Part shown: positions 14,199 to 52,107 of the stretch, piece after piece
Position numbering within the stretch: position 1 is the first letter of the stretch
Layout of the letters: each line of letters starts with the position of its first letter
Notes under the pieces: model-generated
What the model was told of the DNA's origin: nothing
The model's input: the letters and a program-made list of their open reading frames with translations, nothing else
The model's database searches: none
Assembly (NCBI RefSeq): GCF_017592825.1
Contig: NZ_JAGFMD010000003.1
Span: forward strand, 62,001 to 126,000
Length of the DNA stretch: 64,000 bases
Origin: Roseivirga sp. E12
GTDB taxonomy: Bacteria > Bacteroidota > Bacteroidia > Cytophagales > Cyclobacteriaceae
Direction: 5' to 3'
Program-made: the position numbers and the translations under genes

Positions 14199-14231
14199 TT
14201 AGTTTGTTTTAATTATACTTAGTTTGTTTTA
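14199..14231. promoter_or_regulatory. Candidate operator for the small HTH regulator: 13-bp direct repeats, 20-bp period
   Basis: TTAGTTTGTTTTA occurs identically at 14199-14211 and 14219-14231, so both copies face the same side of the helix. The pair lies 75-107 bp before the start of the small HTH gene in a very AT-rich stretch. Confidence 0.5.
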
Positions 14232-14556
14232 TAATATTATTTAAAATATATTGAAGCTATTATATAGATGTTTAAAACAACTATATCATATGATTCAATT
14301 GACTACTAGATTTCTCTGTACCCAGATGCGATAGGGAAGAAGCAAACATCAACTGATCATAGCCTTGCTGCCTCTTTACGGAGCTTGTACCACTTCACAG
14401 ATGGTGTGGTGGTTGAGGCCTTAAGGTTTTGATCGTGTTTGGTTATCCAAATTGTTGTGTTTTGTGTAAGGCGACAAAGGGCTCTCGATACTATATGCAC
14501 CCATATCAGTACCGAGGTCCTTTTCGTGTTTTAAGATGCTTTCGTCTCTGGTTTGT

Positions 14557-21693: not shown

Positions 21694-21712
21694 ATAACTG
21701 CTATTTAGTTAT
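21694..21712 (-). terminator. Weak hairpin at the end of the SLBB gene
   Basis: ATAACT (21694-21699) pairs with AGTTAT (21707-21712) across a 7-base loop that spans the SLBB stop codon. The stem is AT-rich and short, so it may be a weak terminator or chance. Confidence 0.3.
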
Positions 21713-24392
21713 TGTCTAATCTCTGTACTAGGAATATAGTGGTGAGTGTGGAGCTGACAATGGCTGCTATGGTGCCAAAATTCTCAAGGAATTTGCCCGG
21801 CTCTCTTTCTCTTTTTGCTGGTTTGGCAGAAACAGTAATTGTTGCCCCATCCAAGACTTTCGGGTTCGAAAACCAGCCTACTTTTCTTGTGAATCCGTTT
21901 GGTTGAGTCAAGAATATCTTCTTAGCGTTTTTCGTCTTCCCTCCAGAGTTTCTCAGATACGCTCTTACACCTAGGTTCTCTGTAAACTTCTGAAGTGACG
22001 GGTTAACCACTTCACCTTGCACACTAATGGTATAAACAGACTCAGGGAAATAAATCTCATCATTAGGTTGCAGAACGATATCAAACTTGGTATTTCCTTT
22101 ATTAAATAGGTCATCAAAAGAAAAAGCTAAGCGTTGACCGTTTCGAGTGAAAGTCGCCCCAGGAAGATATGCATTGGGTGATAGACCACCTACCTTGTTG
22201 ATTAATTGAGAGAGAGTCTCCCCTTTGCTCTCGAGATTGTATGTACCGGGAAATTTGACTTCGCCTCCAACACTTACCCTTCTTTGTTCTGAGGAGCCTG
22301 GAATATTGTCTACAGAGACATTGTCGTTATGTTCTAGGAAATAACTTGAAGTGGATTTAGTATTTATACCCACCAAATAGCTCATGTCTGTTTTAACCCT
22401 CTTCAACTCGGCTATTTGGTTTCCTGTAAAATCGAACTTCTCTCTAGAAACTGTGACTGAATCTTTGAAGGAAGTTCGTACAAAGCCCCCTGCTTGCAAT
22501 ATCAAGTCTTCTACTGTCATGCTATCCGTTAACAGAAAGCGACCCTCATTCTTAACTGCACCACGAATTGTGACATATTTATCCAGTATCTCATTGATAT
22601 CACGGCTATAAAGAATCACCTTGTCTTTAGGCCTTAAAACAGCATTAAACCTCTTATCCAAGACGTTATCCAAATTGAATGGAACTACTTGATAGTCTGT
22701 TCTGCCCTCTTGATACCTCAACAGGTCAGCCCTGCTAGTCAAAATTCTATTTTGATATTCTAGGTCCTCTATGTTCGCAGACATAAAGATTAAATCATAG
22801 AGCGTAAAGTTCTCTCTCCACAAAACAGTCTTTGGCTCAGAAAGAAAGCCCTCGATGGAAACTGTTTGTAGGGCCCCTAATTCCTGATCATTATAAATTT
22901 TTACTGAGTCATCGGGTTGAAGGCTCAAGTCAGAATTAATTTGGCCACCAATAATATCGGACAAAGAAAGAGATCTAAACTTCAAATCGCCATTTCGATC
23001 TTTTCTGAAGAGGTCAATTTTTTCAAAGTAAGTGTTTGGTCTTAAGCCTCCTGCATTTTCAATTAAAGAACGGATAGTCATGTCCTCTAACAGCTCATAC
23101 TCACCTGGTCTAAACACAGAACCGGCAATTGTCACAAGGTTGTCGAACTTATCTAGCACCTTACTAAAGGTGATCTCATCTCCGTCTTGAATACGAAAAT
23201 TCACACCATCCTGCAAAAGTTGATCATAATCAATAGTGATAATTTCTCGGTCAAAAGCAGAATCGTCATTTCTACCAATAAGAGGCTTGATTCTCTTGAT
23301 AGTAACTCCACCAGTATGAGCTGAAGGTTTTAGGCCACCAGCGAAACCCAAAAGATCAACTAAGCCTTCTCCTGATTTCAATTCGTAAATTCCCTGTCGA
23401 TTCACTTCTCCCTTCAAGGATATACTATTCAGTCTACTTTGAATGAAAATGACATCATTACTCATTAGTCTCAAGTCTTCAGAAATTGACCCTTTGATCA
23501 AGTAGTCATATAGATCGACTGTCGAAACAAATTTGTTGTTTCGAAAAACTTTTATGTCACGAAGTGATCCTGAAGTTTTTATTCCTCCAGAAGCGTAAAG
23601 CGAGTTTAATGTTGTGGCAAAAGCATTGATAAGATGGGAGCCGGGGTTATTTGACTCTCCCATAACCATAATTCTGATCGGTCTAAGTTTGGTTAACGAA
23701 ACATCTAAGAAGATTTTGTTCTTAGTCAAACCTGAATAAAAACGAGATAAATACTGCTTAAGCCTCTGGTTCAAGTTTTGATAAGTAGTACCTGAGACGA
23801 ACACCTGGCCAACATTCGGCATAAAGAGGTTTCCATTGATGTCAACGATTCCTTCAAACTGAAACTCTGCTTCTCCCCATAGGTAAACACGTAATTCATC
23901 TCCGGGGCCAACAATGTATCCAGGGTCTATATTACCAACAAGTGCCTGTTGATTTGCATATGGGTTATTATTGAAAACATCATATCCAAAATATTTCAGT
24001 CCATCCGAGTCGTCTGGCTTTTTCGTGACATCCACAGTTGGGGCAATTTGACTTCGGTCATCCTTTATCTCAGTTGTATAATCTACTAAGTCGGGTTCAA
24101 TACTGTTTATAGGTTCAGCTGAGGTAGTTGTTGCTTCTTTATTGAGAACATATTTTTGAAGGTATTGATCATAATCTAAACCATAGAGTTTGGCTTGTCT
24201 TCTTGCATCTGCCTCTGACATCCCTCTTTTACGAAGTTCAGCCTGAATTTCTTCAAGGGTATCAATCCCTCTTTTTTCAAGTTCCTGCTTAACTTGTTGT
24301 TCCGATTGACCAAGGGCCATTAACGGTGCAAGCAACAATAAGTATAAAAAGATACTACTTACTGCTAGGTATTTTAGTTTAGTGCCTATCAT
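21705..24392 (-). CDS. SLBB-domain polysaccharide export protein (Wza-like, large form)
   Basis: An 895-residue envelope protein. Signal peptide to about residue 28, a charged helical stretch with 'GIDTLEEIQAELRKRGMSEAD', a polysaccharide-export (PES) domain near 150-260 ('GYIVGPGDELRVYLWGE'), then a series of about six SLBB beta-grasp repeats ('GEVNRQGIYEL', 'GSVFRPGEYEL', 'GAVKNEGRFLL', 'GEVKFPGTYNL', 'GEVVNPSLQ'), and one C-terminal TM helix. Such proteins form or gate the outer-membrane exit for capsule or exopolysaccharide. No glycosyltransferases are in the window. It follows a TPR gene and a 66-residue gene on the same strand. Confidence 0.9.
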   Translation of the reverse strand: MIGTKLKYLAVSSIFLYLLLLAPLMALGQSEQQVKQELEKRGIDTLEEIQAELRKRGMSEADARRQAKLYGLDYDQYLQKYVLNKEATTTSAEPINSIEPDLVDYTTEIKDDRSQIAPTVDVTKKPDDSDGLKYFGYDVFNNNPYANQQALVGNIDPGYIVGPGDELRVYLWGEAEFQFEGIVDINGNLFMPNVGQVFVSGTTYQNLNQRLKQYLSRFYSGLTKNKIFLDVSLTKLRPIRIMVMGESNNPGSHLINAFATTLNSLYASGGIKTSGSLRDIKVFRNNKFVSTVDLYDYLIKGSISEDLRLMSNDVIFIQSRLNSISLKGEVNRQGIYELKSGEGLVDLLGFAGGLKPSAHTGGVTIKRIKPLIGRNDDSAFDREIITIDYDQLLQDGVNFRIQDGDEITFSKVLDKFDNLVTIAGSVFRPGEYELLEDMTIRSLIENAGGLRPNTYFEKIDLFRKDRNGDLKFRSLSLSDIIGGQINSDLSLQPDDSVKIYNDQELGALQTVSIEGFLSEPKTVLWRENFTLYDLIFMSANIEDLEYQNRILTSRADLLRYQEGRTDYQVVPFNLDNVLDKRFNAVLRPKDKVILYSRDINEILDKYVTIRGAVKNEGRFLLTDSMTVEDLILQAGGFVRTSFKDSVTVSREKFDFTGNQIAELKRVKTDMSYLVGINTKSTSSYFLEHNDNVSVDNIPGSSEQRRVSVGGEVKFPGTYNLESKGETLSQLINKVGGLSPNAYLPGATFTRNGQRLAFSFDDLFNKGNTKFDIVLQPNDEIYFPESVYTISVQGEVVNPSLQKFTENLGVRAYLRNSGGKTKNAKKIFLTQPNGFTRKVGWFSNPKVLDGATITVSAKPAKREREPGKFLENFGTIAAIVSSTLTTIFLVQRLDNN

Positions 24393-24725: not shown

Positions 24726-26585
24726 CTAATTCTCGTTGTTGAAATCACCGCGAAGCTCCCTGAACCTTGTGCGAGCTTCGGCAACGAATATACTCCCAGG
24801 AAACTTTGTGAGTAGATCATTATAAACTGTCATTGCTGATTCAGTGTTCCCAAGGTCATCTTGGTGGATAATTCCTGTCAGAAATAAAGCATCATCTCCT
24901 AGTATTTCGAAATAATGGGCTTCGTTAATCTTATTTAGCGATAACAGTGCGCTATCAAAATTCCCTAACTCTCTTTCTGTTTGAGCTCGCAGATAAAGTA
25001 ACTCATCTACAATAGAGTGGTAATTGTACTTAACCAACATCGAGTCCATGGCCTGTAAGGCCTCTAACTTCTGATTTTGAAATAGTAATAATTCAATACT
25101 CGCATATTCTTGCATCACCACATCCGTACTATCAAATACCGTATTGTTCTTTATAAGAATACTGAGGTCTAACGCATCGTTGGCAATCTCTCTTGACGTA
25201 GCGAGTTTTAAAATATCTAAGTTGCTCTGAGCAAGCTCGAAATCACCTTTGAAGTATGATAGCTTTGCGCTTTTGAGTTTGGCGGTATAGCCCAAAGGTT
25301 CGTCCTTAAACATCCTTTCAACTTGACCATAGAGCAAAATAGATTCCCAAGGTTCTTTGTTAAGTAGGTATATATCTGCTAGGTCCATTTTGGCTTCCGC
25401 TACAACATTATGTCTACCTACCTGTTGTTCTAGCATGCTTGTGAGGGTTTCTATGGCATTGTCAATTTCGTTAAGTTGAAATGCCTGTAACAAAGCTATG
25501 CGCCTCTGAGATTCCATCACTGAAAACACATCTCTCGATTCAGAAATATAGACTTCGTACCTTTTAATAAGATCTCGAATCGCTGTGGTATCTACTGGAT
25601 AAGACTTTTTAAGAACCTCTTCTTCTGAGAGTAAAACATAACGTGAGGCAAGTCTTCGGCTCGGACTCTCTGGAAAATCTTCAATTATGTAACCAAATGC
25701 CTTCTTTGAAGTTTTGTAGTCCGAATTTCTAAATGAAATCATTGCCACGTTCATTATATTATCGCCATTATTAGCTAGTCTTCTATCAAGTGCTCTTGCT
25801 TGTCTGAGTGCCGCTGAAAAATTCTTCTGTTGAAGATGGGTCCATACTAAAAGGTTATTGTAAGTACTATTACCCGCTTCCTTTTGAATGACGTTGTACA
25901 ATGACATTTCGAGAGTATCCAAGTCCGCAGGTTCTTGTAAATATCGTTGAAGTGAATTTTTTACATAATTCAAGTTTTGGGGCTGATTCTTAGAAAAATT
26001 GAGATACTCAGAAATCATTGGCTGCTTTTTGTTCATCAGTCGATAAACATTGGCTAAATCGAGAGCAAATAAGTCTTCCTGTCCTAAGGCATTTCTTCCT
26101 TTGATATAGGTATCAAGTGCCTTATCCCTAAAATTCCTTTCAAAAAATACTTGTGCTAGAAATCGGGTCTCATTGGATTTCTTTTCTACAGCAGCCTTGT
26201 CGGTAATCTTTTTAATGACATTTTCGAGCAATTCGTTTGCTTTATCCTCTTCATTTTGAGTCCGGTAAAGCACTCCTAAATCCACTTCATAGATGAAATT
26301 TGTGGGATTATTCTTAACCACATTTTTGAGGTACTTCTCTGCTTCATCGAATTCCTCCATTGTAAGAAGTAATTTGAAATACGTATCGTGAATTCTCGAA
26401 ATATTTCGTCTGTTTCTCGCAAGCTTCTGAAATTCCTCCTTGGCTTTTTCAAATTCACCCTGGTTGTAGTATTCTTTGGCAATTTCAACGGGATCATTTG
26501 TTTGGGCATGTGCATAATTTGAATTAATGATGATGCAAGCTACAGCAGTAAGGCAAGACTTTATCAACAGTTTCAACACACTCAT
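24726..26585 (-). CDS. Exported tetratricopeptide-repeat protein
   Basis: A 619-residue protein with a signal peptide (about residues 1-27, ending AHAQ) and many TPR-like helix pairs along its length ('AKEYYNQGEFEKAKEEFQKLA' at the start, 'TESAMTVYNDLLTKFPGSIFVAEARTR' at the end, quoted in parts). TPRs form protein-binding scaffolds; here probably in the periplasm. It borders the putative replication origin, being transcribed away from it, and is followed by the 66-residue and SLBB genes, so it may help assemble the same export machinery. Confidence 0.85.
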   Translation of the reverse strand: MSVLKLLIKSCLTAVACIIINSNYAHAQTNDPVEIAKEYYNQGEFEKAKEEFQKLARNRRNISRIHDTYFKLLLTMEEFDEAEKYLKNVVKNNPTNFIYEVDLGVLYRTQNEEDKANELLENVIKKITDKAAVEKKSNETRFLAQVFFERNFRDKALDTYIKGRNALGQEDLFALDLANVYRLMNKKQPMISEYLNFSKNQPQNLNYVKNSLQRYLQEPADLDTLEMSLYNVIQKEAGNSTYNNLLVWTHLQQKNFSAALRQARALDRRLANNGDNIMNVAMISFRNSDYKTSKKAFGYIIEDFPESPSRRLASRYVLLSEEEVLKKSYPVDTTAIRDLIKRYEVYISESRDVFSVMESQRRIALLQAFQLNEIDNAIETLTSMLEQQVGRHNVVAEAKMDLADIYLLNKEPWESILLYGQVERMFKDEPLGYTAKLKSAKLSYFKGDFELAQSNLDILKLATSREIANDALDLSILIKNNTVFDSTDVVMQEYASIELLLFQNQKLEALQAMDSMLVKYNYHSIVDELLYLRAQTERELGNFDSALLSLNKINEAHYFEILGDDALFLTGIIHQDDLGNTESAMTVYNDLLTKFPGSIFVAEARTRFRELRGDFNNEN

Positions 26586-26946
26586 ATTAGTATATTATTC
26601 TTTATATAAACTTAAGTTGTTTCTATTAGGGCTGTGGATATGTGGAAATCTTTTTCGATTCACACTAATCTAAGACATTTGTTTACGAAATGTTTGCAAT
26701 ACAGTTATTCTTCACAATTTATGCACTTGTTAATCTCTTGCTTATTAAGTAGTTATTGGTCAGATATTGATAAGTGATTGTTTCGGTGGATAAGTGGTCT
26801 TCTTGATAAAATGTGTGGATGATGTGGTGATACATTGTTTGGAATGTATGGGTTATCCATGTTTAGCGAGCTGAGAAAAATTCTACTATGATTTCTGTGG
26901 AGAAGTTGATGGGATATAATGACTTATACACAAGTTATACTTGCGG
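26586..26946. other. Putative chromosomal replication origin (oriC)
   Basis: This 361-bp gene-free, AT-rich spacer carries a perfect DnaA box TTATACACA (26924-26932) and near matches to TTATCCACA: TGTGGATAT (26633-26641), GGTGGATAA (26785-26793), TGTGGATGA (26814-26822), TTATCCATG (26853-26861) and TGTGGAGAA (26896-26904). Hand counts on sampled lines show C above G on the + strand to the left and G above C to the right, though both sides are coded on the same strand. parS-like sites and mnmG (gidA), often close to oriC in bacteria, are nearby. No dnaA gene is in the window. Confidence 0.7.
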
Positions 26947-28575
26947 TTAGAAGAAGACATTGACATCAGTCTGCTCCCAATTCTTCCTAACTTCTATGAA
27001 TTTGGTTTTGTAAAAGTCGTCAAAGTAGAACTTAGCTGGCTCGGGGCTTTCCCAATTCAAGAGGTTTCCAATGTCCCATTTTCCATTTCCATTGATGTCT
27101 TTAATAACCCTTATCATGTAGCGGCCAGCAGAGAGATAAGTGAATAGAAACTCTTTTGAATTAGATGTGCGGACTACATCATGTGTCCGTGAATCAAGTA
27201 ATTGAACGATGATTTGTTCATGGTCAGATACGACCGAGCCACCAATAACAGCTGAGTCATCGGTTGTCAAAAGGGAAATGCTTTTGTCTTGCTGAATAGA
27301 AGTGTCATTATCGGCTGAGATAAAAGCACCAGTTTTAAACACTAGAAAGATGTTAGGGCTTGATACTCGATTTAGTAGTTCTACTATATCTATTGGAAAT
27401 GAGGCCTGAGTATTGAGTTTATCCCAACTAATGAGGGTTGGGTCTATCTGGTGTGTGGTTGTACTGTCAAGCTGATAATAGAGGCTATCAGCGTTAAATT
27501 GAAGGACAGGTTTATTAAAAGAAATTGAAATAGTGTCTTTTGGAGGAAGTTGATTAGTACTTGGGCTCACTTCGAAGCTAAAGGCTGCAGGATCTAACCT
27601 AGATTCATTGAAAGAGACTTGTACAGTATCTAAAAAGACACTATTGAGAGAGTCTTTCACACTAAAAATGAGTTGTGTAGTATCGGAGGTAGGCCTATCC
27701 ATGGGATAGAAGCGTACTTTAGAAGCTTCAGGTATGCTGTATATTAGATCTTCTCCTTCGACTATCTCGAAATTACTAACTGATTTATTAAATGAGATGT
27801 CATAATAAATTCCAAAGTTTCGGGCAGAAACAGTGCGAATTCTTTCTGTATTTAAACTCTGAATAGTGAAGTCAATGTTGGTAAGTGAACTACTGAGTGA
27901 GAGAGTGTCTGGATAGAATCCATATAGCTCACTTTCACTATCGGCTTGGCTGTTATTGTTTTTGTCTCTAACAGCATAAACTCGAAACTGACCACTAGGC
28001 AAGTTTCTGAAGTTGTAGTTGCCGGCTGAGTCTGTACGGCTGTAATAGGATGCTGGCCCTGTTAGAATGTCTAATGAATCGCTTTCTGAATAAAGTGAAA
28101 CTAAGAGGTTTTCTATAGGGTCTTGAGTATAGAGGTTTAGAACCTTTCCCGCTATTGTCAACGAGTCGATGTATTCTCCTGTTGAAAAGCTCAGATTAAT
28201 GCCTTCGGCTGGGTTGTTATTTGTAATGTCCTGGATTGTACTTCCAAAGCTCAAGTTATAGGTAGTATTTTCTTGAAAGGGCTCAGTGAAACTCAGGGAG
28301 AGGACATTCTTGTTAACTCTGGCTCTATAGGTACCAGCTGGTTTTGGTGTAATGATGAGATCGGTTTCGATTGACCTAGTAATTATTCTTTCATCAAAGG
28401 ACAGTTGAATTGTTTGACCCTCAAAATTAGTGGTGCCTGCTTCTGGTGTTGAACTTATGAGTACGGGTGGGGTTTCATCTTCTGGACCACCTGTTGGTGC
28501 TCCTACTCTGGCACATGAACCAATGAATAGCAGAAGGATTAGAGATAAAGCTGTACGGGTTCTAATAGGTGTCAT
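26947..28575 (-). CDS. Lipoprotein with bacterial Ig-like (Big_5/SbsA) domain
   Basis: A 542-residue lipoprotein (lipobox 'FIGSCARVG', Cys about 21) with an SbsA-type Ig-like domain at about 35-135 ('PPVLISSTPEAGTTNFEGQTI', in the usual wording of this family), a carboxypeptidase-regulatory-like beta domain near 140-215 ('YSRTDSAGNYNFRNLPSG'), and a second Ig-like half. Common in Bacteroidota, role unknown. Its start overlaps the stop of the methyltransferase gene (ATGA), so it ends the mnmG operon, pointing at the putative oriC. Confidence 0.82.
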   Translation of the reverse strand: MTPIRTRTALSLILLLFIGSCARVGAPTGGPEDETPPVLISSTPEAGTTNFEGQTIQLSFDERIITRSIETDLIITPKPAGTYRARVNKNVLSLSFTEPFQENTTYNLSFGSTIQDITNNNPAEGINLSFSTGEYIDSLTIAGKVLNLYTQDPIENLLVSLYSESDSLDILTGPASYYSRTDSAGNYNFRNLPSGQFRVYAVRDKNNNSQADSESELYGFYPDTLSLSSSLTNIDFTIQSLNTERIRTVSARNFGIYYDISFNKSVSNFEIVEGEDLIYSIPEASKVRFYPMDRPTSDTTQLIFSVKDSLNSVFLDTVQVSFNESRLDPAAFSFEVSPSTNQLPPKDTISISFNKPVLQFNADSLYYQLDSTTTHQIDPTLISWDKLNTQASFPIDIVELLNRVSSPNIFLVFKTGAFISADNDTSIQQDKSISLLTTDDSAVIGGSVVSDHEQIIVQLLDSRTHDVVRTSNSKEFLFTYLSAGRYMIRVIKDINGNGKWDIGNLLNWESPEPAKFYFDDFYKTKFIEVRKNWEQTDVNVFF

Positions 28576-29450
28576 CTGCTTAGTACATAAATGAGGCTGC
28601 TATACTCATTAGTTTTAACGGCTTTTCTATTAGAGAGGTATCCATTAATGAATGCCTTGTAGTAGCTCTTCTTTTTGTTGAGGTACTCATCGGAAAGTAA
28701 ACTAACATAATAGCTATCAAATTTCATGGGATGCGTAGCAACAATATTCAGACCAAAAGTTTTGGCCAGCTGGTGGACGCTTTTTTGTGAGAAATGATAG
28801 AGGTGACGTGGTACATCATAGCCAGCCCAGTGATTGCCGTAGCGCTGTGCATCCTCAGATTTGTAGTTAGGGAGAGCGAGTATAATGATCCCGTTTTTAT
28901 CAAGGTGTGATATCAGTGTTTTAAGAGTATGCTCTAAATCATGTACATGCTCAAGTACATGGAAAAGACTGATTGAAGAGAAGGTTTGATCAGAAGGTAA
29001 TTGATCTAGTTTTTGGTAGACAGAAGAAATGTTCTTGGTTGCAATATTGTAGGCTTTTTGGTCTGGTTCAATACCAGTAACGCTCCATTCTTTGGTTTTC
29101 AAAAATTTGAGGAACGCTCCTGTCCCACAGCCAAAGTCGAGGTGTTGTTTGTCAAGAGTGTATTTTTTAAGAATGCTATGTTTTCGTTTGAAATTGATCT
29201 TTTGAACCTTGCTGTATATTATATTGAAAAAACCACCCTTTTTGTCTCCATGAGACACGTAACTATTTGATTTATAGTAGGTTACAATGTTATCAATGGA
29301 TGGTCGAGGATTTGTAATGAGAGTCTGACATTGCTTGCAAAGACAGAGCTTGAAGTTTTCTTTATCACCGAAATGATCTATAACATCGATGTGTTCTTGT
29401 AACTCTCTACTATGACATATTGGACAGCATGTAAGCGTTTCGTTGATCAT
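28572..29450 (-). CDS. Class I SAM-dependent methyltransferase with N-terminal zinc ribbon
   Basis: A 292-residue protein. The N-terminus has a CPIC-x24-CLCKQC zinc-ribbon pattern, followed by a Methyltransf_23-like Rossmann domain with SAM motif 'HLDFGCGTGAFLKFL' near 103-117 and 'ISLFHVLEHVHD'. Proteins of this build often modify sugars or lipids in envelope glycan pathways; the substrate is unknown. It overlaps mnmG and the Ig-like lipoprotein gene by 4 bp each, so all three are translated in a chain. Confidence 0.85.
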   Translation of the reverse strand: MINETLTCCPICHSRELQEHIDVIDHFGDKENFKLCLCKQCQTLITNPRPSIDNIVTYYKSNSYVSHGDKKGGFFNIIYSKVQKINFKRKHSILKKYTLDKQHLDFGCGTGAFLKFLKTKEWSVTGIEPDQKAYNIATKNISSVYQKLDQLPSDQTFSSISLFHVLEHVHDLEHTLKTLISHLDKNGIIILALPNYKSEDAQRYGNHWAGYDVPRHLYHFSQKSVHQLAKTFGLNIVATHPMKFDSYYVSLLSDEYLNKKKSYYKAFINGYLSNRKAVKTNEYSSLIYVLSR

Positions 29451-31312
29451 CGGCCCATGTATACCATTAGTACTGAAATGTCGGCAGGCGAGACACCGCT
29501 GATTCTTGAAGCCTGGCCAATGGTTTTAGGCCTGATCTTTTCTAGTTTCTCTTTTGCTTCCGATGATAAAGCCGGTATACTCTTAAAGTCAAATGTTTCT
29601 TTTATTCGGAGTCCCTCTAGTTCCGATACACGTTCTGCTAGCTTCGTTTCTTTATCGATATAATCCGCATACTTGATATGTATATCAGCACCGTCAAGAA
29701 TGTCTTGCTCATACTTATCAAAGTATTCTTCAAGGGAATCGTTTACTTGTTTAAGGTCACTAATATGAACTTGTGGCCTCTTGACCAACTTAGCCAGGTT
29801 CGTTCTATGCTGAATTGCTGCACTTGAAAGTGATTCAAGTGTGGGATTTACTTCAGAAGGATCTACCTTTTTCTGTTCTAGGTCGTTGAGAAGTTTGTGA
29901 ATCTGACCTGATCTGGCTTTCATAGTGTCATATCGCTCTTGAGTTGCTAGGCCAAGATCATATCCCTTTTGTGTTAGTCTTAGGTCTGCATTGTCTTGTC
30001 TAAGAAGTATTCTGTGCTCGGCTCTTGACGTAAACATACGATAAGGTTCATCTGTGCCTTTATTGATGAGGTCATCAATGAGAACGCCAATGTATGCTTC
30101 CGAACGTGATAAGGTGAACTCTTCTTTTTTAGTGCTCTTTAGGTGAGCATTGATTCCGGCCATTAGGCCTTGACAAGCTGCCTCTTCATAACCTGTCGTG
30201 CCGTTGATTTGGCCAGCAAAGTAAAGGTTGGAAACTAACTTCGTTTCAAGCGTATGATTCAGTTGTGTTGGTGGAAAGTAATCGTATTCAATGGCATACC
30301 CAGGCCTAAACATTTTGACATTCTCGAAGCCACTAATCTTTTTGATTGCTTCGTACTGAATGTCTTCCGGAAGGGAAGTAGAAAAACCATTGACATATAT
30401 TTCAACAGTATTCCAACCCTCTGGCTCAACGAAAATTTGGTGCCTGTTTCGTTCCGCAAAACGATTGATTTTGTCCTCTATAGAGGGGCAATACCGAGGA
30501 CCTATTCCCTGTATTCTTCCATTGAACATGGGAGACTTGTCGAAACCTTTCTCTAATGTTTGATGCACTTCAGGATTGGTATATGTTATATAACAGCTCC
30601 TTTGTTCTTTGAGTGGACGAGTTGAATGACTGAACGAGAATTTCTCCGGTTGTTCATCTCCAGCTTGCTCCTCCATTTTACTGTAGTCTAAAGAGCGGCC
30701 ATCAACGCGAGGAGGGGTGCCAGTCTTCATCCTGCCAGCTTCGAAACCGATGCTTACCAATTGTTCTGTTATTCCCGTTGAAGCTCCTTCCCCTGTTCTT
30801 CCCCCTCCAAATTGTTTTTCACCAATGTGTATGATACCATTTAGGAAGGTGCCTGATGTAAGTATGACGGACTTGGCTTTGAATTCAATGCCCATGCCAG
30901 TTGTGACACCGGTGACAACATTGTCTTTCACCAGAATGCCTGTGACCATTTCTTGCCAGAAATCAATGTTGGGATTAGCCTCCAATGCTAAACGCCATTC
31001 TTCTGCAAAACGCATGCGGTCGTTTTGAGTTCTTGGACTCCACATCGCTGGGCCTTTTGATTTGTTGAGCATGCGAAACTGGATCATGGACTTGTCAGAA
31101 ATGATACCTGACATTCCACCGAGTGCGTCAATCTCACGAACTATCTGCCCTTTGGCCACACCCCCCATCGCAGGATTACATGACATCTGGGCAATGGTGT
31201 TCATGTTCATTGTGATCAGTAGAACTTTTGAACCCATTCGTGCAGCAGCATTTGCGGCTTCACACCCGGCATGACCGGCCCCTACTACTATAACATCGTA
31301 TGCTGGATACAT
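29447..31312 (-). CDS. mnmG: tRNA uridine-5-carboxymethylaminomethyl modification enzyme MnmG (GidA)
   Basis: A 621-residue FAD protein that, with MnmE, installs the 5-carboxymethylaminomethyl group on U34 of certain tRNAs, using folate and NADH. FAD site 'VVGAGHAGCEAANAA' at 9-23, 'SCNPAMGGVAKGQIVREID' near 46, 'GRTGEGAS', and the C-terminal helical domain ('LSSEAKEKLEKIRPKTIGQASRI', in parts) that binds MnmE and tRNA. Full length. Two parS-like sites separate it from ybeY. mnmE is not in the window. Confidence 0.97.
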   Translation of the reverse strand: MYPAYDVIVVGAGHAGCEAANAAARMGSKVLLITMNMNTIAQMSCNPAMGGVAKGQIVREIDALGGMSGIISDKSMIQFRMLNKSKGPAMWSPRTQNDRMRFAEEWRLALEANPNIDFWQEMVTGILVKDNVVTGVTTGMGIEFKAKSVILTSGTFLNGIIHIGEKQFGGGRTGEGASTGITEQLVSIGFEAGRMKTGTPPRVDGRSLDYSKMEEQAGDEQPEKFSFSHSTRPLKEQRSCYITYTNPEVHQTLEKGFDKSPMFNGRIQGIGPRYCPSIEDKINRFAERNRHQIFVEPEGWNTVEIYVNGFSTSLPEDIQYEAIKKISGFENVKMFRPGYAIEYDYFPPTQLNHTLETKLVSNLYFAGQINGTTGYEEAACQGLMAGINAHLKSTKKEEFTLSRSEAYIGVLIDDLINKGTDEPYRMFTSRAEHRILLRQDNADLRLTQKGYDLGLATQERYDTMKARSGQIHKLLNDLEQKKVDPSEVNPTLESLSSAAIQHRTNLAKLVKRPQVHISDLKQVNDSLEEYFDKYEQDILDGADIHIKYADYIDKETKLAERVSELEGLRIKETFDFKSIPALSSEAKEKLEKIRPKTIGQASRISGVSPADISVLMVYMGR

Positions 31313-31326
31313 ATCCTTAAATCAAT

Positions 31327-31342
31327 AGTTCCACGTGAAACA
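31327..31342. promoter_or_regulatory. parS-like centromere site 1
   Basis: The 16-mer AGTTCCACGTGAAACA matches the ParB-binding consensus TGTTnCACGTGAAACA at all but the first base. It lies just upstream of mnmG, 4.4-4.7 kb from the putative oriC. Confidence 0.78.
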
Positions 31343-31359
31343 GTTGCGCTAGTCGAAAA

Positions 31360-31375
31360 AGTTTCACGTGGAACA
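31360..31375. promoter_or_regulatory. parS-like centromere site 2
   Basis: Read on the - strand this is TGTTCCACGTGAAACT, matching TGTTnCACGTGAAACA except for the last base. It is the inverted partner of site 1, centres 33 bp apart. The pair could also fold as a hairpin in the ybeY-mnmG spacer. Confidence 0.78.
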
Positions 31376-31387
31376 CTTTGTGTTTCT

Positions 31388-31816
31388 TCAAATGTGCAGC
31401 AAAGATAAAGAAGCTTCTTCGCTTTTTCTCATCTCTGTTTTTTGAGCTTCGGTTTTATCCTGTTTTCCAAGAAGGTGGAGAATGCCATGAATCATTACGC
31501 GATGAAGTTCGTGCTTGTAAGGAATCTTGAGTCGTTTAGCATTGTCCTTAACTCTGTCGATGGATATGAAAATATCGGAATCGATTGGAGCACTGTCATC
31601 TTCGCGATTGTCAAAGGTGATGATGTCAGTGTAATAGTCATGATCAAGGTACTGCTGGTTAACTTTGAGTAAATAGTTGTCTGAACAATAAATGAAATTG
31701 ATTGAATCAATTATCTGGTCATGCTGCTCAACAACTTGACTGATCCATGACTTAAGTATGCGCTTATGGGATAGCGGGAAGGAGATCTCTTCTTGGAAGA
31801 AGTTGATCTTTGACAT
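31388..31816 (-). CDS. ybeY: Endoribonuclease YbeY (rRNA maturation factor)
   Basis: A 142-residue metal-dependent RNase for 16S rRNA 3'-end maturation and ribosome quality control. The metal site is 'HGILHLLGKQDKT': the first two histidines are kept but the third of the usual HGxLHLxGyxH pattern is Asp (D, 'KQDKT'). I recall the same substitution in Bacteroidota YbeY proteins, so it is probably active. Its ATG shares one base with the stop of the upstream ATPase gene (TAATG). Confidence 0.92.
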   Translation of the reverse strand: MSKINFFQEEISFPLSHKRILKSWISQVVEQHDQIIDSINFIYCSDNYLLKVNQQYLDHDYYTDIITFDNREDDSAPIDSDIFISIDRVKDNAKRLKIPYKHELHRVMIHGILHLLGKQDKTEAQKTEMRKSEEASLSLLHI

Positions 31817-32217
31817 TAATTGAGGTAGAAAGTAAGTTCCAAGGTACTGCCGTCACTTTTGAAGTTTACTTCGTCAGCAAGGTTCTTGATCAGGAAGATT
31901 CCGCGACCGCCAATTTTTTCTACGTTCTCAGGTGCTGTTGGATCCGGAAGGTTCTGATGATCAAAACCAGCTCCTTGATCGGAGACTGTGAATACTATCT
32001 GCTCGTCTTGTAAATTGGCACTAAGCAAGACATTTTTGGCTTTATCGGCCTTATTACCATGGATGATGGCATTATTAACCGATTCAATGACTGCAATCAT
32101 AATATTACCATAAAGATCATCGGTTAGGCTGTATTCTTCTTTGGCGTTGTCTACGAAGCTCTCGACTATGCGAATGTTCTCAACAAGAGATGGTATTTCG
32201 ATGCTTATGTTCTTCAT
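31816..32217 (-). CDS. Anti-sigma-factor-like ATP-binding protein (RsbW/SpoIIAB family)
   Basis: A 133-residue GHKL-fold protein with N box 'ESVNNAIIHGN' (about 44-54), G1 box 'DQGAGFDHQNLP' and G2 box 'GGRGIFLIKNLAD'. Relatives are serine kinases that bind sigma factors or STAS anti-anti-sigma proteins. No STAS or PP2C partner is nearby. ATG at 32217 is preferred to a TTG at 32229 that would overlap the DUF4175 stop. Part of the DUF4175-rsbW-ybeY-mnmG chain. Confidence 0.85.
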   Translation of the reverse strand: MKNISIEIPSLVENIRIVESFVDNAKEEYSLTDDLYGNIMIAVIESVNNAIIHGNKADKAKNVLLSANLQDEQIVFTVSDQGAGFDHQNLPDPTAPENVEKIGGRGIFLIKNLADEVNFKSDGSTLELTFYLN

Positions 32218-32225
32218 TGAAGGGC

Positions 32226-35200
32226 TCAATTCTTTTCCTTGATCTTTTTGAAATACTTATTTGTCTCTCTTTTATAATAGGGATTCAGCTTTGCTGGGAT
32301 AGTTTTTAGCAATTCGATTTCCTTTTCTTTGGCTTTTAAGTATTCATTAAGAGATTCTGGAATAGACAGGTCGTAGTCAAAGGCTGTTCTTCCTTTTCTT
32401 TCCTCGTCCTCACCCCTTTCTTGAACCGAGTTTTCGGCTTCTAACAAACGGGTTAATATATCTTGCTGTCTCTGAACAGTCTCATCAGTAATGCTTTTGT
32501 TGATGAGATCCCATTCATTTTCTTCCATTTGATTGATCAACTGATCAATTTTCTCGCCCAATTTATTTCCATCAAGGCCCGTTTCAAAATTTTCAAGCGC
32601 ATTTCTGAGTCTTTCTTGTTGAGAGGCTAGTTTGGCTAACTGCTCACTGAGTTGGCGTCCTGACATGCCGCTCTCTTTTAGTTCTTTGATTTGCTCACTA
32701 AGCTGCTGTTGTAGCTCACTTAAACCACCCATTTGTGGTTTATTCTTTTGATTTCCTTTTGATTTCCCTTGACCCATTTGACTGGCCATTTGCTGCTGCA
32801 TTTGCTGAACAACGTCATCAAGTAAAAGAGCCAAGTTGTTTATGGCAGTCATAGCAAACTGTTGTTTACCGACTGCTTGGTTAATACGTTTTTCTTTGAG
32901 TGTCTCGACAGCACCATCCATTTGGCGATTCATTTCTCCCAATTCACGCATTACAAAGGAGGATATTTGAAATACTCTTTGAGATAATGAAATGAGACTG
33001 TCTTGAATGATCTTGGAGTCATCTTGTAGCTTAAGCTGACGTTGAGATAGCTTAACATATCTAGGATCGCTTTGTCGTATCTCCTTAAACTCGTTCATTA
33101 AGCCTTCTTGATTAAAGGAAAGAGTAACTAAGTTGTCGACAAGATCTCTTAAGTTTTCCAGGTTTTCTTGCTGCTGCTCCATTTGGGCACCGCTTTGCAT
33201 GGACTGAAGGCTCTGTTTTACCTCTTTCATCTTTTCGGCAGCACGCTTTTGAGATTGAGAGGCATTCTGTCGCTGTTGCTGGCTTTCGGACTCTTGGCTT
33301 TCACTTTTTTCTTGCCCTTCTTCTGAAGAGTTTTCTTCTTTCTCTCCCTCCTCATTTTCTCCTTTATCGCTCAGTTCATCTTGTGCTTTTTGCTGTTCAT
33401 CTTTTGCTTCTTCAAGGCTTTCGTCCAAGTCTTCTGGCAGGCTATCAGGGTTTTTGCGATCTTGATTTAATTCATTAAGCTTGTCTAGCTCTTCTTGAAG
33501 TTTTTCTAAGTCTTCCTGCTCTTTTTTCTGCTCTTCGGCAAGCTCTTCGTTGCTTTTTTCACCCTTTTCAGTTTCTTCATTCAGAGCCTCTTGATCATCT
33601 ATCTCCTCCTGTAGTTTCTCAATATTATCTTCAAGCATTTTATCAAACTGAAGCTTTTTGAAGAGTTCTAAAGTTCTTTCGAGGTCTTCTTCCAGGTTAC
33701 CGCTATTTTCCCGGAGATCGTCCATTTTTTCTCTAAACTCCTCTATATCAGACTGTTCCTCTAACAACTCTCTTAGCTCATCGTAGAGCTTCTTCATCTC
33801 ATCATCCAATACATTGTCCATGATTTCCTGAAGCTGTTCCATCTTTTGCTTAATGGATTCATTTTGAGGTTTGAACTGCTCGAGTTTTTGGTTGTTTTGG
33901 TTGTTTTGCTTTTTGAGCTCGTCAACCTTTTCGGCAAGCTTGTCTTTTTGATCCAAAATTTCTTGCATCAGCTTCTCGTCCTGCCACTCTATCTTTTTCT
34001 TAGTCTTGAGCCTTTCATCGGCTTCTTCGATCATTTTGTTCAGCTCTTTAGCATCCTCGAGTGTCTTGTCTATTTCGCTTTGAATCTGTCGGTCGTTAGC
34101 CTCAATTTCAGCTTCAATTTCTTCCAATGAAGGAATTTTGAAACTATAAGTAGCTGATTTGACAGCTTTTGAACCATTAACCGCATCGTTGTCGGCCACT
34201 TGCATGTAATACTTTAATTCTGCCCCAGCTTGAATTTTGGCTGAATCCAGTGTATAAACTTGATAATAGCTCTGATCGGAAAGTTCCTGATTGAATGGAA
34301 TTGTAAAAGACTCGAATGTTTGTTCATCATCATAAGAATAGTGGAAAGAGAGGGATGAGAACCCATAGTCATCTTTGATGTTTCCACCCAGAACTATGTT
34401 TTTATAAAGAACGGTGTCCTGAAACTGGTCTAATACGATTTCAGGATATCGATCCTTAATCACTTCAATTTGAAACTTTAGAGAATCTTTATTACTGCTG
34501 AATTCATTCTTAAGCTGAATAGAATACGGCCCCGACTTACTAATCGTTCTTTCTAAAAGAAACTCTTCTTCATTTACTAATTCTGCAGCTAATGCTTCTG
34601 CCGGATTTTCAAAGTGAATAGAAAGTGATTCAGTGTGTTTTGTGTTGAACTTCCAACTTACCTCAGTCCCCTCAGGTACCGTCAAATTACCAGAATTGCG
34701 GATATTCTCGTTTTCTCTTAGTGTGTACTCAGGGTACTCTATATCCATGCTAAACAAGTCAACGGCAGGTCTATTGAAGGCTTCAATGTTATATCGGTCT
34801 GAAAGCACTCCTTCAGATTCCAAGCTGAAACTCACATCTCCGCGCAAGCGGTCAATCCTGTATTCGAATTTATCATTGTCTATTTTGGATACTTTGATTT
34901 TACGCTCATTGATCCAGATATAGACGTCAACTGGGCTTAATTGACCTGAGGTTTCTATGGACAGCGTAAAAGGTTCGTCAATGAAACCTTCGAGTTGAGT
35001 TCTATCTATTGAAAAACTGAATGGCGCCTCTGCCTTAAATTCCGAATTATAGTTTATTATTCTGGTTGAGCTTTCGGTAATGAACTGAGGCAAAAATATC
35101 AAGAGTGCTATGATAATGGCTACCGGAGTATAGACATACCGGAGATATTTTCTATTGGCTTTGAGGTCAATGGCGTTTACGAATGGAACCTGTTGAATAG

Positions 35201-51024: not shown

Positions 51025-52107
51025 TTAATCAGGAAAGGCACTTGCGTCAATTCCAGGGATAATGCGCAAAGCATTCTTATAGTATATGCTTTTCAGTACC
51101 TCATCCGATAGGCCCAAGCCATACATTCTCCAGAAAGCATGATATCGCTTGTAATACGGAAAGTACTCGTCTTCTGACTCCAACACTCTAAAGTAAGTCG
51201 GGTATTCATCAGGGTTGTATGCGTCCTTGCCAAAGAGTACGCGTGTTTGATACTTTTCTAAAAACGCCTTCGCAAACCTTGGCTGCCTACCCAGCTCAGC
51301 AATTACTGCACCGATCTCTACCATCATATTTGGCATCTCGTCTAGTAACTCAGCCAAATGGTTAAGATCATTGGCATACCAGCCCATGTGAGCAGCGATA
51401 AAGGTAGTATTGGAGTGCTTTTTAAATACATTATGCTGCTCCTCTATCATGGTAGTCCAGGGAGCAGGGTCGTCATTTTCTCTTTTGCGCCTTGGGCGAG
51501 TCTTTAATTCAAGCCAGCGTTCATTGTTGGCATCAAAAGGCTCCCAAAACTGCTTGGGATCGGCTGTATGAATTAAAACGGGTATTCCAAGTTCCCCACA
51601 TTTAGCCCATAATGGATCTAATCGAGCGTCATCTACGGCCACACGGTTGCCATCTTTATCTTTAACAGAAAAACCGAGGCTCTTGAAGATCTTTAGTCCT
51701 CTAGCGCCCTGATTGTAGTCTCTTTCTAACTGAGCGGCAGCTCTCGGCCCCCAGTCATCGTCAATATTATTGAAATTGGCATTTGCGAAAATGATGAATC
51801 GTTGAGGTTGGTTGTCTTTAATGTTTTTGATGGCATCTACCACAGCTTTTCCGCTACCACCAGATAGGTTGACCATAAGCCCCATATTGAGGCCATCCAT
51901 TTCAGAAGCAAGTTTATTAAGGTCTCGCTCTCCCATACGCCACTGATGACTATGGACATCTATAAATGGGAATTTGGCGTTTGAAATCGGGTTTTCAGGA
52001 ACTACTAGTGTTGATGGCGGATCATATTCTTCAAAAGTGATTTGAGCCATCAGTGATTGCTGGGCAATCAAGAAACAGCCGATAATTAATAGATGGTGTC
52101 TTTTCAT
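51025..52107 (-). CDS. Exported amidohydrolase-family metal-dependent hydrolase
   Basis: A 360-residue TIM-barrel protein with a signal peptide (ending LMAQ). The family motifs are 'FIDVHSHQW' near residue 35, 'IPVLIHTADP', 'FIAAHMGWYA' and 'VLFGKDAYNP', giving His, His, His and Asp ligands. This is the Amidohydro_2 (ACMSD-like) subfamily, in which products are C-C or amide cleavage; the substrate is unknown. ATG at 52107 is chosen for the signal peptide; the frame runs to 52149. Confidence 0.85.
   Translation of the reverse strand: MKRHHLLIIGCFLIAQQSLMAQITFEEYDPPSTLVVPENPISNAKFPFIDVHSHQWRMGERDLNKLASEMDGLNMGLMVNLSGGSGKAVVDAIKNIKDNQPQRFIIFANANFNNIDDDWGPRAAAQLERDYNQGARGLKIFKSLGFSVKDKDGNRVAVDDARLDPLWAKCGELGIPVLIHTADPKQFWEPFDANNERWLELKTRPRRKRENDDPAPWTTMIEEQHNVFKKHSNTTFIAAHMGWYANDLNHLAELLDEMPNMMVEIGAVIAELGRQPRFAKAFLEKYQTRVLFGKDAYNPDEYPTYFRVLESEDEYFPYYKRYHAFWRMYGLGLSDEVLKSIYYKNALRIIPGIDASAFPD

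Follow-up and report, generated by a model that had tools for sequence, protein, structure and literature searches.

Where the chromosome of Roseivirga sp. E12 starts to replicate is a question raised by a 361-bp spacer that an initial annotation had called a likely chromosomal origin without dnaA beside it. A DnaA-dependent oriC is expected to combine an intergenic DnaA-box cluster beyond chance, a low-stability duplex beside the boxes, a strand-composition switch at the site with an antipodal counterpart, and a DnaA with AAA+ and box-binding domains encoded in the genome. An origin located away from dnaA is common in Bacteroidota, for which origins far from dnaA, and one beside mnmG, have already been published. 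In the excerpted parts of these sources, origins are predicted by Ori-Finder/DoriC for Prevotella intermedia OMA14 (PMC4755523), where a box cluster likewise lies at the GC-skew switch and far from dnaA, and for Mariniflexile litorale (PMC11278836), where the predicted oriC adjoins mnmG according to the text, whereas two genes intervene in Roseivirga sp. E12. The text excerpt of the latter source places oriC by mnmG and ter by leuB; the legend of its Figure 3 swaps oriC and ter.

Roseivirga sp. E12 is a marine bacterium with a genome of 4.70 Mb in 35 contigs. The stretch of DNA analysed here, referred to as the window, covers 64 kb (bases 62001-126000 of the 357,781-base contig C29, NZ_JAGFMD010000003.1). 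Its mnmG is nearest to that of Roseivirga spongicola among the named records found (82%; very near records may be missing from the comparison). On the minus strand, mnmG is followed by the methyltransferase gene, the Ig-protein gene, the spacer and the TPR gene (Table 1), so that the coding on the same strand on both sides of the spacer, as previously claimed, is borne out by the ORFs. The nearby mnmG and parS-like sites mentioned alongside were recovered as well. A tRNA scan and an Rfam scan at the gathering cut-off gave no matches in the 64-kb window.

Table 1 Features of the putative origin region (window coordinates)
Feature	Position	Strand	Basis
TPR-repeat protein gene on the left, directed away from putative oriC	24726..26585	-	ORF, TPR domains
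Probable DNA-unwinding element (DUE); starts 6 bp inside TPR gene	26580..26629		low duplex stability
Putative oriC spacer between TPR gene and Big_5 (Ig-like) gene	26586..26946		box cluster, skew changepoint, synteny
Conserved core, TCCACATATCCACA + GCC + CTAATAG	26623..26646	-	15-species alignment; overlapping pair in 67/94 loci
CTAATA hexamer, two DnaA-trio-like triplets adjoining tandem boxes	26624..26629	-	TAATA near pair in relatives
DnaA box ATATCCACA, 1 mismatch, DUE-proximal member of tandem pair	26633..26641	-	box scan
DnaA box ATTTCCACA, 2 mismatches, second of pair, one base common with first	26641..26649	-	box scan; same 8-bp offset in relatives
DnaA box TTATCCACC	26785..26793	-	box scan; aligned column of boxes in congeners
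DnaA box TCATCCACA	26814..26822	-	box scan; partly conserved in alignment
DnaA box TTCTCCACA	26896..26904	-	box scan
DnaA box TTATACACA, perfect to TTATNCACA	26924..26932	+	box scan; similar boxes at Big_5-gene end in congeners
Big_5 / Ig-like domain protein gene on the right, directed toward putative oriC	26947..28575	-	ORF, PF13205
Methyltransferase-domain gene	28572..29450	-	PF13489
mnmG (gidA)	29447..31312	-	TIGR00136, 850 bits
parS-like palindrome 1	31327..31342		pattern match; conserved place
parS-like palindrome 2	31360..31375		pattern match; conserved place

Counted against the consensus TTATCCACA, the spacer contains no perfect DnaA box, but five that deviate at one position and a further six that deviate at two, while the consensus TTATNCACA yields one perfect box; the original count of one perfect and five near boxes hence holds or fails depending on the consensus and the mismatch limit applied. 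Judged from the window, in which 25 sites with at most one mismatch are found versus 17.5 +/- 4.3 in shuffles, only about 0.1 such boxes would be expected by chance per 361 bp, and when the bases of the spacer itself were shuffled 1000 times, 0.14 boxes were obtained on average and never more than two, so that none of the shuffles reached five. The box scan proposed as a check was extended to 338 kb of the contig, comprising 112 sites at the same tolerance, and again singled out the spacer region as the densest 400-bp stretch (six boxes, one to two of them just inside the TPR gene); the next separate place holds three boxes per 400 bp, a density exceeded nowhere else.

The spacer was further described as AT-rich at one end, which is correct: its first 60 nt are 73% AT, compared to 68% for the spacer as a whole. 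Among the non-overlapping 50-mers of the window, the probable unwinding element beside the boxes is the second least stable one, with -49.4 kcal/mol versus a mean of -64.3 (sd 3.8). The least stable 50-mer, at 14203-14252, lies in an inter-ORF gap without a DnaA-box cluster.

Strand composition was originally addressed by hand counts on sample lines. Those to the left of the spacer (38 G, 59 C) are exact, and those to the right are correct for G (91) and off by one for C (66 instead of 65). The skew step itself is present, but exaggerated by the lines sampled, as the 10 kb on either side contain 1798 G and 2282 C versus 2024 G and 2005 C. The cumulative-skew plot suggested as a check has its raw minimum for this contig at window position 51943, in a broad valley 25 kb from the spacer. 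Since gene direction shapes the raw skew, this minimum was dropped as a locator, and, with the raw plot being indecisive in the contig, G versus C at codon position 3 was fitted instead, using gene strand as covariate and a single switch point. Of the gene boundaries tested over 255 ORFs, the best is 26585/26946, i.e. the spacer, with a dLL of 169.7, followed by 21611/21704 with 166.4, whereas 40 gene-order shuffles averaged 18.3 and did not exceed 68.8. Bootstrapping places the switch at a median of 26766 (5-95% range 21.4-35.6 kb; 92 of 100 replicates within 21-32.3 kb). When the five genes at 26947-32229 are left out, the optimum shifts past one further gene to 35603/35694 (dLL 170.8), and when the 12 genes between 21.0 and 37.2 kb are left out, it stays in the resulting gap (21172/37146). 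Because of the bootstrap range and these shifts, the contig on its own pins the switch to about 14 kb.

Within such limits, an origin close by but outside the spacer could be considered, either at 51.9 kb, where the raw minimum lies, or in another gap between 21 and 36 kb, a range that the bootstrap spans and at whose right end the optimum settles without the five genes. However, the spacer is the best boundary once gene strand is modelled and all genes are kept, the rest of the 338 kb offers no comparable box density, and in a congener with a 4.576-Mb contig (G001) both the raw and the corrected minimum point to the orthologous spacer. Applied there to 350 kb with 269 ORFs, the fit gives 3378118/3378486, which is precisely this spacer, as best boundary (dLL 150.6, with at most 24.9 reached in shuffles), and the 350-kb stretch has its raw cumulative minimum at 3378610, only 124 bp away. 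Taken alone, the plain cumulative-skew check would have led 25 kb away from the spacer in the contig itself. An origin elsewhere in the neighbourhood is therefore regarded as very improbable, although it fares marginally better than the alternatives discussed below. Sampled in 20-kb pieces, G001 has positive skew between 3.35 Mb and, continuing past the contig end, 1.0 Mb, and negative skew between 1.1 and 3.2 Mb; the raw sample just before the spacer (3.35-3.37 Mb) is already slightly positive (+0.005). The opposite switch was sampled between 1.02 and 1.10 Mb, and the antipode of the spacer is at 1.09 Mb; a switch at the site is hence accompanied by an antipodal one in this congener. In G030, a member of the same family, the raw switch was sampled at 1.82-2.00 Mb, with mnmG at 1.75 Mb, and the opposite switch at 4.2-4.6 Mb; given this sampling and one sample of the wrong sign at 2.6 Mb, the agreement extends only to about 0.25 Mb. 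A same-strand G3 comparison across 76 loci gave the expected direction in 67, but was rejected as proof, as a control split at the mnmG start was lopsided as well (7/68): the test is confounded by the mnmG-methyltransferase-Ig block, which has its own low G3.

The single DnaA match in the genome, carrying both the AAA+ and the C-terminal box-binding domain, is encoded on a different contig than the spacer. If the origin were nevertheless located beside dnaA, the spacer cluster would have to be a DnaA titration or regulatory site. Boxes do occur at the dnaA locus, with two in 400 bp in the strain itself (L001, 3.5 kb) and three to four in the congener loci L180, L183 and L184, the highest count of four being that of G016 (L183). 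They suggest that dnaA regulates itself, its promoter thus being probably DnaA-controlled. The density at the strain's own dnaA locus is nonetheless lower than in the spacer, dnaA of G001 is located at 2.763 Mb, inside the negative arm and 0.61 Mb from the switch, and neither a coinciding skew switch nor a low-stability stretch would be anticipated at a titration site, which leaves an origin beside dnaA with a barely appreciable likelihood. Just as slight is the chance that the cluster is not an origin but an operator through whose DnaA boxes the TPR gene, with its promoter probably in the spacer, is controlled: this gene starts at the low-stability end, so that DnaA binding may well affect it, yet such regulation is compatible with origin function, and an operator leaves the skew switch, its antipodal counterpart and the nearby parS-like pair unexplained.

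The spacer as an origin gains further definition from its conserved core, in which two boxes overlapping by one base are followed by three nucleotides, CTAATA and the low-stability stretch. This pattern has a single match in the whole genome of Roseivirga sp. E12. An alignment of 15 congeners including the window, from which G006 and G010 (seemingly near copies of G004 and G008) as well as G007 and G015 (mnmG partial) were omitted, revealed one strongly kept element, in which two boxes offset by 8 bp are followed by a few bases, CTAATA and AT-rich DNA. Across congeners and other relatives, a search tolerating two mismatches in each box recovered the overlapping pair on the mnmG strand in 67 of 94 testable loci, a count that is not one of independent loci since some relatives are close; the pair is missing in 27. 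Before removal of three copies of named genomes the figure was 70 of 97 testable loci out of 102, five being too short for the test. On the other strand the pair occurs in only 2/94 loci, and it was seen neither in equal stretches inside mnmG (0/94) nor after one base shuffle of each locus (0/94). In 56 of the 67 loci with a pair, TAATA is located at most 12 nt from it, versus 7.0 expected from shuffles. The count of 67 depends on this tolerance: with a stricter, almost exact pattern of boxes plus TANTA, matches on the mnmG strand are limited to 25 of 80 named loci, and those on the other strand to two of 80.

With TAATA conserved next to the boxes, on the side of the AT-rich DNA, the core resembles the basal unwinding system (BUS), made up of DnaA boxes plus DnaA-trios (PMC8287927). 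Common to both are tandem boxes and, after a short spacer, a box-proximal triplet that equals 3'-GAT-5' when read on the opposite strand, with AT-rich DNA beyond it. In contrast to the BUS, the window has only two consecutive trios (CTA ATA), and its paired boxes overlap by one base, their offset being fixed at 8 bp. A strict DnaA-trio reading, which by the search rule of PMC8287927 demands an uninterrupted run of three or more 3'-NAN-5' trios no farther than 16 bp from a box, was therefore rejected, and the core is called BUS-like, not a BUS member. Runs of at least three trios also showed no excess among 65 related cores (38 versus 35.6 in shuffles); seven fetched loci, including the cluster-less G045 and G056, were excluded from this count.

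The position of the cluster is likewise shared by relatives. The synteny set comprised 80 named mnmG loci plus the window, 76 of which reach far enough, and in 56 of these 76 (window included) a 400-bp stretch with four or more boxes lies 4.25-5.35 kb away from the start of mnmG. The 20 loci without a cluster of four are seven of the eight Pontibacter and 13 others. All 15 congeners fetched carry the cluster at the mnmG-linked place, as do G028, G031 and G040; G045 and G056, of the same order, have no box cluster there. At class level, only four of 20 genomes, picked for long contigs out of 146 with mnmG, display a 400-bp stretch with four or more boxes no farther than about 10 kb from mnmG. 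As only these four do so, and one of them belongs to the strain's own order, the cluster was rejected as a class-wide trait and the claim is limited to the order. In a genome of this order (G189, locus L229), 13 DnaA boxes in 400 bp are located 5.5 kb past the mnmG start in a stretch of 61% GC, and the 20 kb fetched contain no parS-like site; this probably represents a similar origin in which the boxes are more densely packed.

A chromosomal parS is assigned by a palindrome match, a location near the origin and an encoded ParB. The putative pair 14 and 47 bp upstream of mnmG, 4.4 kb from the spacer, has one mismatch to TGTTNCACGTGAAACA and thereby resembles the TGTTTCACGTGAAACA-like palindromes near the origin in chromosomal parS/ParB systems (consensus as in the excerpted part of PMC10197239). 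Its exact inner 14-mer is found nowhere else in the genome, and one match to the ParB family model is present, on contig C22. In 76 of 81 loci, the 400 bp upstream of mnmG include a site with at most two mismatches; among the 20 class genomes, 13 have one upstream of mnmG, five only inside or soon after mnmG, and two none. Different from the known systems, the sites of Roseivirga sp. E12 adjoin mnmG with parB on another contig, and in G001 parB is 1.36 Mb from the spacer (2.021 Mb), well inside one arm. A third parS-like site with one mismatch, on contig C31, was treated as noise because a reversed control pattern gives eight matches per strand at that tolerance.

Considering the box cluster, the corrected skew switch here and in G001, synteny, the conserved core, low duplex stability, the parS-like pair and a DnaA encoded elsewhere, the spacer is in all probability, close to certainty as far as sequence can tell, the chromosomal oriC, in support of the initial annotation. 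DnaA would occupy the overlapping pair at 26633-26649 as well as the scattered boxes; starting from the pair, a filament could spread onto one strand of CTAATA and the adjacent AT-rich DNA, melting it. Helicases would then load at the melted stretch, and two forks would depart, one toward the TPR gene and the other toward mnmG. ParB may bind the parS-like pair to the right and thus help to segregate the new origins.

Linkage to mnmG is shared with E. coli-type oriC, whereas in Roseivirga sp. E12 mnmG reads toward the putative origin with two genes between them. In E. coli, mnmG reads away from oriC. According to the source excerpts, oriC of Y. pestis KIM+ is located between gidA and mioC, like in E. 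coli (PMC10225481), and gidA ranks among the 'origin genes' (PMC2099444). For Cytophagales, we tentatively propose, as a possibility somewhat short of even, that origins share a fixed unwinding module without repeated trios (a pair at 8-bp offset, a few nucleotides, a single YTAATA and AT-rich DNA), whose place relative to mnmG and parS is kept across much of the order. As the places of oriC and parS are kept with dnaA and parB elsewhere, selection might anchor the cis sites together and not the protein genes. Work on oriC plasmids in Cytophaga hutchinsonii has reportedly been published. Plasmid entries marked oriC have been used in this species as given in an excerpt of PMC5288383, and an excerpt of PMC8653839, on Flammeovirga, does not mention oriC, nor does one of PMC6669920 deal with box spacing. 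A description of the order-wide core and the mnmG-upstream parS pair in Cytophagales was not found in the open-licence literature searched, mostly titles and abstracts, within which the order-wide core is the least described part.

In practical terms, genome records are often opened at dnaA, while the true start would here be elsewhere and could be located via mnmG and a short core pattern. Being small and defined, the conserved minimal core lends itself to tests of DNA opening by DnaA in Bacteroidota, and could be used for building replicating plasmids in marine Cytophagales. With oriC and parS conserved apart from dnaA and parB, it also becomes testable which part of the old origin region is held together by selection. 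Apart from the origin region, the window encodes at 21705-24392 an 895-aa polysaccharide-export protein with repeated SLBB domains, which we take to be long for its family.
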